DNA of 41,221 bases, taken from Anaerolinea sp. GTDB lineage: Bacteria; Chloroflexota; Anaerolineae; Anaerolineales; Villigracilaceae. Below are positions 21,728 to 39,871 of the stretch, one piece after another. The position numbers were made by a program, and so were the translations under genes. The stretch lies in contig DYID01000015.1 of assembly GCA_020723805.1 (NCBI GenBank), forward strand, positions 1 to 41,221. The letters run 5' to 3'. Under the pieces are notes generated by a model, which had not been told where the DNA came from, did not search any database, and saw only the letters and a list, made by a program, of their open reading frames with translations. Positions within the stretch are counted from its first letter, which is position 1. Each line of letters opens with the position of its first letter.

Positions 21728-21780
21728 CCGCCGCACGCCTGCCCTGCGACCGCAGGGAGTATCGAAGTGAATAACTTGTG

Positions 21781-21852
21781 TTACGCGGTAGCGCGAGATT
21801 AATCTCGCGTTTTCAGGCGACATCAATGTCGCGCTACGAAGAAACTGCGTAA
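21781..21852. repeat. TTACGC-ended palindromic element, copy 1
   Basis: It runs from TTACGCGG to ACTGCGTAA and contains two hairpins, GCGAGATTAATCTCGC (21793-21808) and GCGACATCAATGTCGC (21817-21832). The reverse complement of this block is closely similar to 26320-26391. Non-coding. Confidence 0.7.
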
Positions 21853-21914
21853 GATGAGTGAATAATCTCTCTCAAGAGAAAGACGCTATAACGTGAGTTC
21901 GGGTTAGTGAATTA

Positions 21915-26269: not shown

Positions 26270-26319
26270 TTCGCCAGCCAATAACCTCCGCTTCTTAGCC
26301 TTTGTGTTTTTCACTCACC

Positions 26320-26391
26320 TTACGCAGTTTTTTCGTAGCGTGACATTCATGTCGCCTGAAAATGCGAGATGAATCTCGCGCCACTGCGTAA
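26320..26391. repeat. TTACGC-ended palindromic element, copy 2
   Basis: Starts TTACGCAG and ends CTGCGTAA, with inner hairpins around GACATTCATGTC and GCGAGATGAATCTCGC. It is an inverted relative of 21781-21852. It fills most of the 200-bp gap between recJ and the next gene. Confidence 0.7.
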
Positions 26392-26470
26392 CATATGTTC
26401 TTCATGGTAAAAATTGCAACCAATCTCCTGTGAGGGCGTATATCCCAGTGAATTCATACAGGAGAACATC

Positions 26471-27034: not shown

Positions 27035-27138
27035 GAATCAAGGATGTTCTTCCTCTTGACTCTCATTCCCCTCAACCGTAAAATCGAACCACAATTCAAC
27101 GGGCAACAGGGAAGAGACTCTCTTCAAGTATTGGCGCC

Positions 27139-27500
27139 GGAGAGCGCTTGCTGCAAAGATGATCTTGGCGCAGCGAACGTTCTCTAACTGCATAGATGAT
27201 TTTCGCGTAACGGACGTTCTCTAACGTCCGCGAAGAGGGCGCCGAAGGGGCAAGCCTGGCAAGGCGAAACCAGGCGAAACTCTCAGGCAAAAGGACCCTG
27301 CCCCGACTCAACTCTGGAAAGCGTCCCGCAGGCACTCCCTGCGAGGAACACCGACGGTGAAAGATTAGTTAGATAGTCTTATAGTCAAATAGTCTGATTG
27401 TCATAATTCGACTAAAAGATGAGCGACTATAAGACTATGAGACTAATCGAATCTCTCAGGTTCAATTACAGAGGCGCGCGGTTATACCCGTGCGCCTTTT
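27139..27500 (+). promoter_or_regulatory. Tandem glycine riboswitch with terminator, expanded by repeats
   Basis: Aptamer 1 core: GGAGAG (27139), GCGCCGAAGGGGCAA (27239), CTCTCAGGCAAAAGGAC (from 27280) and CTCTGGA (27312). Aptamer 2 core: CACCGACGGTGAAAG (27349), CTCTCAGGTT (27453) and ACAGAGG (27468). Both match the glycine riboswitch consensus. A 10-bp stem (27472-27481 with 27488-27497) then T4 forms the terminator, overlapping the end of aptamer 2. Glycine should permit readthrough into gcvH-gcvPA-gcvPB. Two peripheral stems are enlarged: tandem 32-nt units at 27157-27188 and 27194-27225 in aptamer 1, and a long hairpin at 27363-27448 in aptamer 2. Confidence 0.92.
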
Positions 27501-27520
27501 GATTCGCCAAAATCCGTAAC

Positions 27521-27561
27521 GCGACATTCATGTCGCCACACCGCGCAACATAAATGTTGCG
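27521..27561. repeat. Paired GCGACATTCATGTCGC / CGCAACATAAATGTTGCG hairpins
   Basis: Two adjacent perfect palindromic hairpins (27521-27536 and 27544-27561) lie in the 5' UTR between the riboswitch terminator and the gcvH start. The first is shared with the TTACGC-ended elements at 21781 and 26320. Confidence 0.65.
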
Positions 27562-27587
27562 GCACATCTTCCCAAGGAGACAAAACC

Positions 27588-27965
27588 ATGAACGTACCCT
27601 CCCACCTGAAATACACCAAATCCGATGAATGGTTCGACCCCGCCACGGGCAAGGCTGGCATTAGCGATTACGCCCAGGGACAACTCTCCGACATCGTCTT
27701 CGTCGAAATCCTCGTCGAAGAAGGCGAGACCATCGAAGCCGGCAAGCCCATCGCCTCGGTCGAATCGGTCAAAGCCTCGGCGCAGGTCTATTCGCCTGCC
27801 TCCGGCAAAGTCGCGGCGGTCAACAAAGCCCTCCCCGACAAACCCGAGCTCATCAACTCCGACCCCTACGGCGAAGCCTGGATGATTCAACTCGAAGGCG
27901 GTACGGCGGGAGATGTAATGGACGCTGCCGCATACGAGAAGTATTGCGCGGAACGCGCCCATTAG
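27588..27965 (+). CDS. gcvH: Glycine cleavage system H protein
   Basis: 125 residues: MNVPSHLKYTKSDEWFDPATGKAGISDYAQ, then ASVESVKASAQVYSP, in which Lys62 is the lipoylation site. H protein shuttles the aminomethyl group between P, T and L proteins. AAGGAGA precedes the ATG by 8 nt. First gene after the glycine riboswitch; gcvPA follows 50 bp later. No gcvT or lipoate ligase is in the window. Confidence 0.96.
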   Translation: MNVPSHLKYTKSDEWFDPATGKAGISDYAQGQLSDIVFVEILVEEGETIEAGKPIASVESVKASAQVYSPASGKVAAVNKALPDKPELINSDPYGEAWMIQLEGGTAGDVMDAAAYEKYCAERAH

Positions 27966-28015: not shown

Positions 28016-29371
28016 ATGACCTACATCCCCATCAGTCCCAAAGAACGGGATGCGATGCTGGCGACCATCGGCGTCCAATCGCTCGATGAACTGTTCGAGG
28101 ACGTCCCCGCCAAACATCGCTTCCCCAAACTCGACCTGCCCCCCGCGCTCACCGAAATGGAAGCGCTGGATGAACTCTCGGGTCTCGCGCAGGCGAACGA
28201 AAACGTCCGCAGCGACCTCATCTCCTTCCTCGGCGCGGGCATGTACAACCACTACATCCCCTCCGTCGTGGACCACATCCTCCGCCGCGGCGAGTTCTAC
28301 ACCGCCTACACCCCCTACCAGCCCGAAATCTCGCAAGGGACTCTGCAAGCCATCTTCGAGTACCAGTCTCTCATGTGCGCGCTGACGGGCATGGATGTCT
28401 CGAACGCCTCGCACTACGACGGCGCCACCGCCACCGCCGAAGCCGTAAACCTTGCCAACGCGCAGTTCCGCGGCAAACGCAAGAAGGTCGTCATCTCACC
28501 GACTGTCCACCCGCAATACCGCGCCGTCATCCGCACCTACACCCAGGGCATGGACATGCAGCTCGCCGGCGACGACCAATTCCCAATTACCGATTACCAA
28601 CCTTCGGACCTCCTATCCCTCGTGGACGATAACACCTGCCTCGTCATCGTCCAATACCCTGATTTCTTCGGGCGCATCTACGATTACACCAAACTCATCG
28701 AAGGCATCCACGCTAAAGGCGCGTTAGCCTGTATCGTCGCCAACCCCACCGCTCTCGCCCTCTTCAAGACCCCAGGCTCGATGGGCGCCGACATCGTCGT
28801 CGGCGACGGGCAGCCGCTGGGCATCCCCATGTGGTACGGCGGACCCAGCGTCGGCTTTTTTACGACGCGCAAGCAATTCGTCCACAAGATGGCGGGGCGT
28901 CTCGTTGGCGAAACGGTGGACAGCAAAGGTCAGCGCGCCTACGTCCTCACCCTCACTGCGCGCGAACAGCACATCAAACGCGAACGCGCCACCTCCAACA
29001 TCTGCACCAACCAGGGACTCATCGCCCTTGGCACGGCGGTCTATCTTTCCCTGCTCGGCAAAAAGGGTTTGCGGCAGGTTGCCGAACTCTGCTATCAAAA
29101 GGCGCATTACGCCGCCGCGCAGCTCAGCAAAATCGAAGGCATGGGTCTGTGTTTCAGCGAACCGTTCTTCCATGAGTTCGCGTTGTGCGTCAACCGCCCC
29201 GTCGAGGAGGTCAACGCGCATTTGCTCGAACACGGCATCCTCGGCGGCTACGACCTCGGTCAGGACTACCCCGCCCTCAAAGACCACATGCTGATTGCCG
29301 TGACCGAGATGAACACCAAGGAAGATATTGACACGCTTGTCGAAGTGTTGTCGGAGGTGAGCCATGATTAA
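28016..29371 (+). CDS. gcvPA: Glycine dehydrogenase (decarboxylating) subunit 1
   Basis: 451 residues, the N-terminal half of split P protein: MTYIPISPKERDAMLATIGV, then FLGAGMYNHYIPSVVDHIL and TPYQPEISQGTLQAIFEYQ, all diagnostic. It pairs with GcvPB to decarboxylate glycine. Residues about 187-197 (DQFPITDYQPS) are encoded by CCAATTCCCAATTACCGATT-type sequence (28576-28600), the repeat also found just upstream of the gene. It occupies a surface-like loop before LVDDNTCLVIVQYPDFFG, so function is likely kept. Overlaps gcvPB by 8 bp. Confidence 0.95.
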   Translation: MTYIPISPKERDAMLATIGVQSLDELFEDVPAKHRFPKLDLPPALTEMEALDELSGLAQANENVRSDLISFLGAGMYNHYIPSVVDHILRRGEFYTAYTPYQPEISQGTLQAIFEYQSLMCALTGMDVSNASHYDGATATAEAVNLANAQFRGKRKKVVISPTVHPQYRAVIRTYTQGMDMQLAGDDQFPITDYQPSDLLSLVDDNTCLVIVQYPDFFGRIYDYTKLIEGIHAKGALACIVANPTALALFKTPGSMGADIVVGDGQPLGIPMWYGGPSVGFFTTRKQFVHKMAGRLVGETVDSKGQRAYVLTLTAREQHIKRERATSNICTNQGLIALGTAVYLSLLGKKGLRQVAELCYQKAHYAAAQLSKIEGMGLCFSEPFFHEFALCVNRPVEEVNAHLLEHGILGGYDLGQDYPALKDHMLIAVTEMNTKEDIDTLVEVLSEVSHD

Positions 29372-30896
29372 CGCTTCGCCTACACTCAGTGCAGACGCAC
29401 CCGACCAGACCAAAGTCAAGATTGTCGAACCGACGATTTTCGAACTCTCCTCCCCCGGGCGGACGGGCGTGACCTTCCCCGCTTCAGACGTACCCGAAAC
29501 TGCTCTGCCTCCCGAAGAGTTACTCCGCCCCGACCTGCCCCTGCCCGAACTCGCCGAAGTGGACGTGGTTCGCCACTACATGCATCTCTCCTCCTTCAAC
29601 TACTCGGTGGACACGGGCTTCTATCCGCTCGGCTCCTGCACGATGAAGTACAACCCGAAAATCAACGAAGACACCTGCCGCCTGCCGGGGTTCCTTTACA
29701 CGCACCCATTACAGCCGATTGAAACCGTGCAGGGCAACCTGGCTTTGATGTACCAGTTGCAGGAATGGCTGAAGGAAATCAGCGGCTTTGCCGGTGTGAC
29801 GTTACAGCCCGCCGCCGGCGCACATGGAGAATTCACGGGCGTGCTCATCATGCGCGCTTACCACAAATCGCGCGGCGACCACAAGCGCGTGAAGATGCTC
29901 ATCCCCGATTCTGCGCACGGCACCAACCCCGCCTCGGTCGGCATGATGGGCATGAACGTCGTGCAAATCCCCTCCGACTCGCGCGGCAACGTGGACCTCA
30001 AAGCCCTCGAAGCCGCCTGCGACGATACTGTCGTCGGCATGATGCTCACCAACCCGAACACGCTCGGTCTGTTCGACGAAAACATCGAGAAAGTCATCGA
30101 ACTCGTTCACGGCTGCGGCGGCTTGATGTACGGCGACGGCGCGAACCTCAACGCCCTGCTGGGCATCGTCCGCCCCGGCGATTTGGGCTTCGACGTGATG
30201 CACTTCAACCTGCACAAGACGTTCGCGGTCCCGCACGGAGGCGGCGGACCAGGCTCAGGTCCCGTGGGAGTCGCCGCGCATCTGGTGGATTTCCTCCCCG
30301 AGCCAATCGTCGGCATCATCGAAGAGGGCGAAGACGACCTGCCTCCGCTCTACGGCTTCGTCAAACCCGCCAAGACCATCGGGCGCATGAAAGCCTTCCA
30401 CGGGCATTTTGGCGGCGGCTTGGTGCGCGCCTTTACCTACATCGCCATGCACGGAGCCGGCGGACTCAAAGACATTGCCCAATACGCGGTGCTGAACGCC
30501 AACTATCTGCAAGCCCGCCTGCGGAACACCTATCACATTCCCTACGACAGGACGTGCATGCACGAGTTCGTCGCGGAGGGACGCTTCGCAGGCTCTGACG
30601 TCCGCGCCCTCGACATCTCCAAGCGCCTGATGGACTACAACTTCCATCCGCCTACCAACTACTTCCCGCTCATCGTTCACGAAGCGCTGATGATCGAGCC
30701 GACCGAGACCGAAAACAAAGATACCCTCGACGCCTTCGCCGACGCGCTCATCAAGATTGCCGAGGAGGCAAAGACCCAGCCCGAGCTCGTCAAGTCTGCG
30801 CCGCACACCACCAAATTCGGTCGCATGGATGAGGTCAAAGCGGCGAGGGAGTTGGTCCTTTGCTGCTGGCTGCCGGAGGATTTCAGTGACCAGTAA
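29364..30896 (+). CDS. gcvPB: Glycine dehydrogenase (decarboxylating) subunit 2
   Basis: 510 residues, the C-terminal half of split P protein. PLP-binding Lys285 lies in MHFNLHKTFAVPHGGGGPGSGPVGV. Other family segments are YPLGSCTMKYNPKINE and DSAHGTNPASVGMMG. It starts inside the end of gcvPA, so translation is coupled. Last gene of the gcvH-PA-PB unit. The last codons and the following bases contain CAGTGACCAGTAAGCAGTGATCAG-type low-complexity repeat (30886 to about 30922). Confidence 0.96.
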   Translation: MINASPTLSADAPDQTKVKIVEPTIFELSSPGRTGVTFPASDVPETALPPEELLRPDLPLPELAEVDVVRHYMHLSSFNYSVDTGFYPLGSCTMKYNPKINEDTCRLPGFLYTHPLQPIETVQGNLALMYQLQEWLKEISGFAGVTLQPAAGAHGEFTGVLIMRAYHKSRGDHKRVKMLIPDSAHGTNPASVGMMGMNVVQIPSDSRGNVDLKALEAACDDTVVGMMLTNPNTLGLFDENIEKVIELVHGCGGLMYGDGANLNALLGIVRPGDLGFDVMHFNLHKTFAVPHGGGGPGSGPVGVAAHLVDFLPEPIVGIIEEGEDDLPPLYGFVKPAKTIGRMKAFHGHFGGGLVRAFTYIAMHGAGGLKDIAQYAVLNANYLQARLRNTYHIPYDRTCMHEFVAEGRFAGSDVRALDISKRLMDYNFHPPTNYFPLIVHEALMIEPTETENKDTLDAFADALIKIAEEAKTQPELVKSAPHTTKFGRMDEVKAARELVLCCWLPEDFSDQ

Positions 30897-39803: not shown

Positions 39804-39871
39804 GGCGTTCTCTAACGCCATCAATTGTAGGGCAAGTCTCTGACTTGCCCGCGCAAATCGGAGATTTGCGC
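39804..39871. repeat. Three tandem hairpins after the GT2 gene
   Basis: GGCGTTCTCTAACGCC (39804-39819), GGGCAAGTC/GACTTGCCC (39830-39850) and GCGCAAATC/GATTTGCGC (39851-39871). The first shares CGTTCTCTAACG with the repeat units inside glycine aptamer 1. No T-run follows; they may still slow readthrough. Confidence 0.6.

Follow-up and report, generated by a model that had tools for sequence, protein, structure and literature searches.

The stretch of DNA analysed here, a window of 41,221 nucleotides, is part of a 3.69-Mb assembly in 54 contigs, which is labelled G000 in our comparisons between genomes. The window contains the glycine-cleavage genes gcvH, gcvPA and gcvPB, preceded by a leader (27056-27500) in which a promoter is followed by two glycine aptamers and then by a GC-rich hairpin and T residues. 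The closest relatives of the GcvPB protein are Anaerolineales/Chloroflexota records, among them one named Candidatus Villigracilaceae. The locus is organized as follows.

27056-27084, + strand: sigma-70-like promoter of the gcv leader, TTGACT-17-TAAAAT (consensus match only)
27099-27306, + strand: glycine aptamer 1, with an enlarged P2 stem (lineage covariance model R1, 94.6 bits, model positions 1-108 of 108)
27304-27481, + strand: glycine aptamer 2, with an enlarged P3 tip (RF00504, 40.6 bits)
27472-27500, + strand: probable intrinsic terminator and expression platform, abutting aptamer 2 P1 (predicted helix 27473-27477/27492-27496)
27588-27965, + strand: gcvH (TIGR00527 / NF002270, above cut-off)
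28016-29371, + strand: gcvPA (NF001696, above cut-off)
29364-30896, + strand: gcvPB (NF003346, above cut-off)

Both ends of this arrangement recur in related genomes: a TTGACT-like box is visible 5' of the riboswitch in many relatives, and a GC-rich hairpin with a T run is similarly placed after aptamer 2. The putative terminator helix (27473-27477/27492-27496) has pair probabilities of 0.87-1.0 in the predicted fold, and a consensus terminator scan did not flag the hairpin at 27472-27500. From its position directly against P1 of aptamer 2, the GC-rich hairpin and T run looks like the expression platform of the riboswitch. Elsewhere in the window, 21768-21865 and 26307-26404 form a 98-nt inverted pair, 88% complementary, with palindromes of another family, and part of this pair resembles 27515-27565, between the riboswitch and gcvH.

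The Rfam covariance search proposed in the first-pass annotation of this DNA (RF00504, a model of 94 positions with a gathering score of 32 bits) returned two aptamers above the gathering score, at 27304-27481 (40.6 bits) and 27200-27308 (39.3 bits), and so the tandem pair upstream of gcvH, gcvPA and gcvPB that is expected of this family. The aptamer 1 match, with its start at 27200, appears in one scan and was dropped by Rfam's filters in others. We therefore relied for the limits of aptamer 1 on a lineage covariance model, R1, built from 17 relatives that have other, mostly short, P2 stems, none of them with the repeat insert described below. R1 recovers the riboswitch in 11 of the 11 relatives given to it from outside the training set (63.0-105.2 bits). 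On 601 bases with the filters switched off, the model gives another, lower match (27163-27306, 72.5 bits), which we attribute to the handling of long inserts in that mode. The R1 helices show covariation in the 17 relatives by four of five measures, with 97.5% paired cells and two-sided changes in 10 pairs, either value being reached in none of 500 shuffles; the count of further pair types is not above that of the shuffles (309/500).

The conserved 5' strand of the aligned relatives, CAGGGAAGAGA, corresponds to 27107-27117 in the window. Taken together, the alignment of the relatives and the R1 match at 27099-27306 define P2 of aptamer 1 as an 8-bp stem around a 106-nt insert.

27107-27117, + strand: P1 5' strand CAGGG (27107-27111) and conserved AAGAGA (27112-27117) of aptamer 1 (relatives' alignment, fold and R1)
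27118-27239, + strand: aptamer 1 P2, an 8-bp base stem (27118-27125/27232-27239) around the 106-nt insert (complementarity; the P2 base covaries in the 17 relatives)

We reject a start of aptamer 1 at GGAGAG 27139, since both R1 and the relatives put the start at 27099; this GGAGAG (27139-27144) lies inside the P2 insert. More generally, the difference between the Rfam start (27200) and the R1 start (27099) illustrates that a general covariance model can misplace the end of an aptamer when one of its stems is enlarged.

The P2 insert is built largely from copies of a REP (repetitive extragenic palindromic) family, another copy of which lies near the end of the window.

27133-27147, - strand: putative degenerate inverted REP-like hairpin inside P2, with GGAGAG in its loop region (by-eye comparison with inverted REP copies)
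27151-27187, + strand: first 37-nt tandem unit, containing most of a truncated REP at 27168-27188 (repeat comparison)
27188-27224, + strand: second 37-nt tandem unit, 84% identical to the first (repeat comparison)
27205-27231, + strand: complete REP, GCGTAA and a hairpin with GTTCTCTAAC (core copies and consensus)
39804-39819, + strand: second REP-core copy in the window (core pattern match)

The tandem units that the first-pass annotation had placed in a peripheral stem of aptamer 1 are thus real, but the repeating unit is 37 nt long, at 84% identity, and not 32 nt. Each unit holds REP-like sequence, and the second of these REPs (27205-27231) is complete. The REP-like hairpin at 27133-27147 may have supplied the GGAGAG that misled the first reading of aptamer 1. 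The 12-nt REP core, CGTTCTCTAACG, has 94 copies in G000 compared with 0 for a reversed-pattern control, and is also present in G001 (103), G019 (103), G014 (69), G007 (61), G012 (43) and G009 (42), again with 0 for each control. In G003, G005, G006, G008, G010 and G016 there are 0-1 copies (reversed control 0-2), the sister genome G006 having 1. The consensus of 20 distinct copies is GCGTAG followed by the hairpin, and the window copy reads GTAA. Among the 40 riboswitch regions scanned, G000 alone has the REP core in P2; the one other core match, in G038, is no REP and lies where aptamer 2 ends. P2 in the other genomes is filled by other palindromes or is short (10-274 nt). We found no overlap with other known RNAs in an Rfam scan of 20 fetched REP loci, some of which have tRNA genes nearby.

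Relatives of the host encode a candidate for the enzyme that moves these repeats. The NCBIfam model for the REP-associated tyrosine transposase (RAYT), NF047646, scores 117 bits in G009 and 120 bits in G001 (cut-off 80), and proteins like the G001/G009 RAYT are present in G007 (96% identical), G012 (71%) and G004 (69%). REPs flank the RAYT gene on both sides in three genomes (G001, G009 and G012); in G007 and G004 they stand on one side. In two of the relatives with REPs on both sides of the RAYT gene, the group adjoins an open reading frame whose product resembles GcvH by eye. G000 itself has no close RAYT, its best match being weak and partial (43% over 56 residues), and G014 and G019 have no RAYT match at E 1e-5 despite their many REPs. 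Possession of a RAYT is consequently not a strict explanation of REP number, G000, G014 and G019 all being REP-rich with no close RAYT. Spread of the REPs linked to RAYT activity is nevertheless likely. Because the core occupies P2 in G000 only among the regions scanned, and because copies of the family flank RAYT genes in relatives, the description of this insert as a mobile palindrome is reasonable.

The insert in aptamer 2 belongs to a different family, of which the window again holds a further copy.

27363-27448, + strand: octamer-armed hairpin (TAGTCNN)n/(NNGACTA)n, 86 nt, at the aptamer 2 P3 tip (fold, pattern counts and arm-unit count)
258-342, + strand: second octamer-armed hairpin in the window, with 4 forward and 4 reverse units (adjoins tRNA-Trp at 345-419)

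Every detail reported earlier for the aptamer 2 hairpin was confirmed, namely its length of 86 nt, its closure by GATTAGT/ACTAATC and its perfect 14-bp inner stem (27373-27386 / 27425-27438). The same is true of the claim that the two inserts belong to dispersed families of self-complementary repeats and extend existing stems, to which the genome counts testify, and of the relatives elsewhere in the window, 258-342 being an octamer hairpin and 39804-39819 a REP core copy. The arms of the aptamer 2 hairpin consist of 8-nt units, ATAGTCNN and its complement, with 4 + 4 units in the glycine riboswitch. Matches to ATAGTCNN are spaced 8 nt apart, as in arrays of short tandemly repeated repetitive sequences, which have units of 7-8 nt. 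Copies of ATAGTCNNATAGTC exceed the control in G000 (71 vs 6), G007 (129 vs 27) and G014 (44 vs 5), and the octamer variant ATAGTTNNATAGTT prevails in other genomes.

Across relatives, P3 of aptamer 2 carries TAGTC arms, TAGTT arms, unrelated palindromes (for example in G013) or short loops. At least two recognizable units are present in each arm in 15 of 18 octamer-bearing glycine tips, and the other 3 have fewer in one arm. In G023 a TAGTT-type hairpin of 129 nt occupies the P3 tip of each aptamer. For the glycine riboswitch, the genus counts refer to 16 genomes, G000 included; G004 and G012 gave no gcvH match, and the two-aptamer scans left out G055 and, in part, G045. Our tree has several low-support nodes and contains partial sequences for G001, G002 and G003, and we used it only to name the sisters, G006 and G014, whose pairing has a support of 66. 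G006 is close to the window genome at this locus, with a GcvH 94% identical and P-proteins about 97% identical, and its P3 tip is a 13-nt loop with no hairpin.

Of the parsed genus genomes, 14 of 16 have P3 tips longer than 40 nt, as do 15 of 23 others. This implies that the long tip is old and that the hairpin in aptamer 2 is not necessarily a recent arrival. The possibility that the long stems are ancestral, which the first-pass annotation had named as evidence against its reading, is hence partly borne out for aptamer 2, but the sequence of the tip changes between genomes and the REP insert in P2 is confined to G000 among the regions scanned. What is old in the family is the position at P3; the type and length of the sequence that fills it turn over. 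From this standpoint the P3 tip of aptamer 2 might be an ancestral stem that evolves in place by 8-nt slippage, leaving the REP cluster in P2 as the only true insertion. This account, which we regard as possible but doubtful, draws on the prevalence of long tips, on the variation in length at the site among close relatives (86 nt in G000, 145 in G014, 45 in G001) and on the resemblance of octamer arrays to slippage products. It is difficult to reconcile with the unrelated palindrome in G013 and the short loop in G006 at the same tip, and slippage alone leaves unexplained why the octamer motif recurs at many unlinked sites and in two further riboswitch classes. It also sits uneasily with the fixed order of the arms, forward then reverse in 24 of 24 pairs outside riboswitches, which is expected of a discrete element.

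An Rfam scan of 20 octamer loci of G000 placed, among the matches listed, one in a SAM-I riboswitch, one in a cobalamin riboswitch and 18 without overlap. The SAM-I riboswitch (G000:C33:10148-10356, locus L092, 73.1 bits) has 113 nt at P3 that are not shown in the alignment to the model, and the cobalamin riboswitch (G000:C13:35649-35780, locus L079, 35.6 bits) carries its octamers in a peripheral stem. The same element is therefore common to three riboswitch classes. Our survey of all 45 SAM matches above cut-off in 18 genus genomes found octamer arms at the SAM-I P3 tip in 8 matches from 7 of the 18 genomes (G000, G001, G004, G007 twice, G011, G016 and G017). The majority of the remaining SAM P3 tips are short and several have heptamer-like repeats (CAGTGAT); the other SAM riboswitch of G000 is among those with no octamers. 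In the cobalamin riboswitch, the stem between CAACTGT and AAGTCAGG is octamer-armed in 15 of 18 genomes; of the other three, G016 has a different short repeat there, and G006 and G008 have a short loop. These sites thus vary between genomes in the presence or absence of the element. Only 6 of 18 cobalamin matches lie above the Rfam cut-off, perhaps in part because of the inserts. The cobalamin riboswitch of G007 (locus L225, G007:C29), with an octamer insert of 215 nt, scores 21.3 bits and is below the cut-off; inserts of this kind may thus cause riboswitches to be missed in annotation. Octamer types can differ within a genome: in G001 the glycine and SAM copies are of TAGTC type and the cobalamin copy is TAGTT, and in G011 the SAM copy is TAGTC and the others TAGTT. 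A rule that the prevailing octamer type of a genome is also its riboswitch type fits several genomes but is broken by these two.

That glycine, SAM-I and cobalamin riboswitches of the genus share the octamer hairpin, and that it is able to close, could also indicate that the long hairpins are selected modules, acting in polymerase pausing, leader protection or protein binding and common to several riboswitches of the lineage. We consider this unlikely: G006 has no such hairpin in either its glycine or its cobalamin riboswitch, octamers are missing from 1 of the 2 SAM riboswitches of G000 and from 37 of 45 in the genus, and many dispersed octamer copies lie outside known RNA families.

Those dispersed copies show how the riboswitch members compare with the rest of the family. 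In G000, three or more units in each direction within 140 nt are present in 2 of 23 clusters outside riboswitches (among the loci listed), compared with both of the clusters (2 of 2) that lie in SAM and cobalamin riboswitches. In total the same arrangement is found in 12 of 47 octamer clusters outside riboswitches, and the median hairpin z-score of 48 clusters, relative to mononucleotide shuffles, is -0.7. The G000 loci come mostly from an unselected pattern list, and those of G007 and G014 partly from BLAST matches to whole hairpins, so that the share of two-armed copies is biased upward. With a loose definition of an arm, the forward arm precedes the reverse arm in all 24 pairs outside riboswitches and in all 4 pairs within them, which speaks against plain microsatellites as the whole explanation of the octamers and suggests that the octamer hairpin is a discrete element. 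We infer that the octamer family is mobile, although our search, limited to Y1 transposases, found no transposase linked to it; the term "mobile palindromes", previously applied to both inserts, is thus better founded for the REP, with its RAYT in relatives. Rfam matches above cut-off overlapped the octamers in none of 20 further loci, one of which is the G007 cobalamin riboswitch mentioned above. Several of these loci have tRNA genes nearby, and the G014 hairpin at 1219-1290 of locus L219 directly adjoins one. Another G014 array (locus L221, G014:C3) lies ~50 nt downstream of a T-box leader, and at 1497-1747 of locus L085 other palindromes lie between the two octamer arms, as if inserted in the loop of the palindrome.

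G014, for which the hit list is complete, has 2 of its 19 octamer clusters in riboswitches where 0.04-0.07 would be expected, on the assumption that riboswitches cover 1.1 kb and that 8-15% of the DNA is intergenic; the corresponding Poisson P of 0.0007-0.002 is a rough guide only, since the riboswitch copies descend from few events. One might go further and propose that the octamer-armed hairpin is a lineage-specific element that targets, or is preferentially kept in, the hairpin tips of structured leader RNAs, and so came to riboswitches of all three classes in one genome, perhaps by inserting into the loops that hairpins form in single-stranded DNA. We put this forward only tentatively.

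The enlarged stems are able to close. When each segment is folded alone, pairing within 3 nt of both ends is found for aptamer 1 P2 in 37 of 40 genomes and for its P3 tip in 38 of 40, and for aptamer 2 P2 in 38 of 39 genomes and its P3 tip in 35 of 39. A free fold of the window RNA favors a rival structure, in which the P2 base helix has a probability of 0.08, because the beginning of P3 can pair with GGCGCC of the insert, and aptamer 2 P1 has one of 0.13-0.43. A fold with five native helices enforced is 1.7 kcal/mol less stable, against a total of -163.9. These predictions suggest a riboswitch core that can form and is available without necessarily dominating, and the earlier statement that both cores are intact, which had been based on the wrong 5' strand for aptamer 1, is not fully supported. 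The low probability of the P2 base helix might instead be taken to mean that the P2 insert damaged aptamer 1 and that aptamer 2 works alone. With the aptamer 1 core fitting the lineage model over 108 of 108 positions at 94.6 bits, and the native fold no more than 1.7 kcal/mol above the best one, we think this unlikely.

The explanation that best accommodates these observations, and that we hold to be probable, is that two peripheral stems of the gcv riboswitch have been lengthened by dispersed self-complementary repeats that are tolerated as helix extensions. In this riboswitch family glycine is sensed in two aptamers and a terminator is controlled. The tandem riboswitch upstream of gcvH-gcvPA-gcvPB would accordingly be expected to act, probably through the terminator that abuts aptamer 2 P1. 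Aptamer 1 P2 would have taken up a cluster of RAYT-associated REPs, the 37-nt tandem duplication included. The P3 tip of aptamer 2 carries an octamer-armed hairpin, its units changing in number and type between related genomes, the changes in number probably arising by slippage. A repeat that folds on itself would only extend a helix pointing outward from the core, leaving the ligand pockets intact, and for this reason such insertions would survive purifying selection; repeats landing elsewhere than at stem tips, or lacking self-complementarity, would be lost. The octamer hairpins at the stem tips of the SAM-I and cobalamin riboswitches would follow from the same filter of tolerance. We infer that the inserts are neutral and that the riboswitch is active in regulation.

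This suggests that the peripheral stems of regulatory RNAs could grow by the addition of ready-made palindromes and not only base by base. One family in three riboswitch classes, with sites that are filled, differently filled or empty, also amounts to a natural experiment on what stem extension costs in folding and switching.

Compared with other members of RF00504, the riboswitch is typical in having two aptamers above the gathering score upstream of gcvH-gcvPA-gcvPB, and differs in that aptamer 1 P2 (122 nt) and the aptamer 2 P3 tip (86 nt) are far longer than the 94-position model allows for. Its REPs resemble the GTAG-tagged REPs associated with RAYT transposases (PMC3733652), for which the portion of that paper available to us names Chloroflexi among the phyla with GTAG repeats: they share a GTAG-like tag, a short stem-loop, a high copy number and, in relatives, a RAYT with adjoining REPs. 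They differ from what that portion describes in lying within a riboswitch aptamer, in their loop TTCTCTAA and in the lack of a close RAYT in G000. Judged by its title as cited in PMC4046671, a study of heptamers of short tandemly repeated repetitive (STRR) sequence in cyanobacterial RNase P RNA (Vioque 1997) concerns a similar case of short-period repeats within a structured RNA; here the units are octamers, the arms are inverted and three riboswitch classes are involved. Rickettsia palindromic elements, going by their description in the part of PMC10969869 consulted, are likewise dispersed palindromes tolerated inside genes, but the genes there encode proteins. A search of open papers found none that reports a single repeat family in riboswitches of several classes. 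REPs, RAYTs and repeats within structured RNAs are already known, and the distribution of one repeat family across riboswitch classes is a new variation on them rather than a new kind of regulator.
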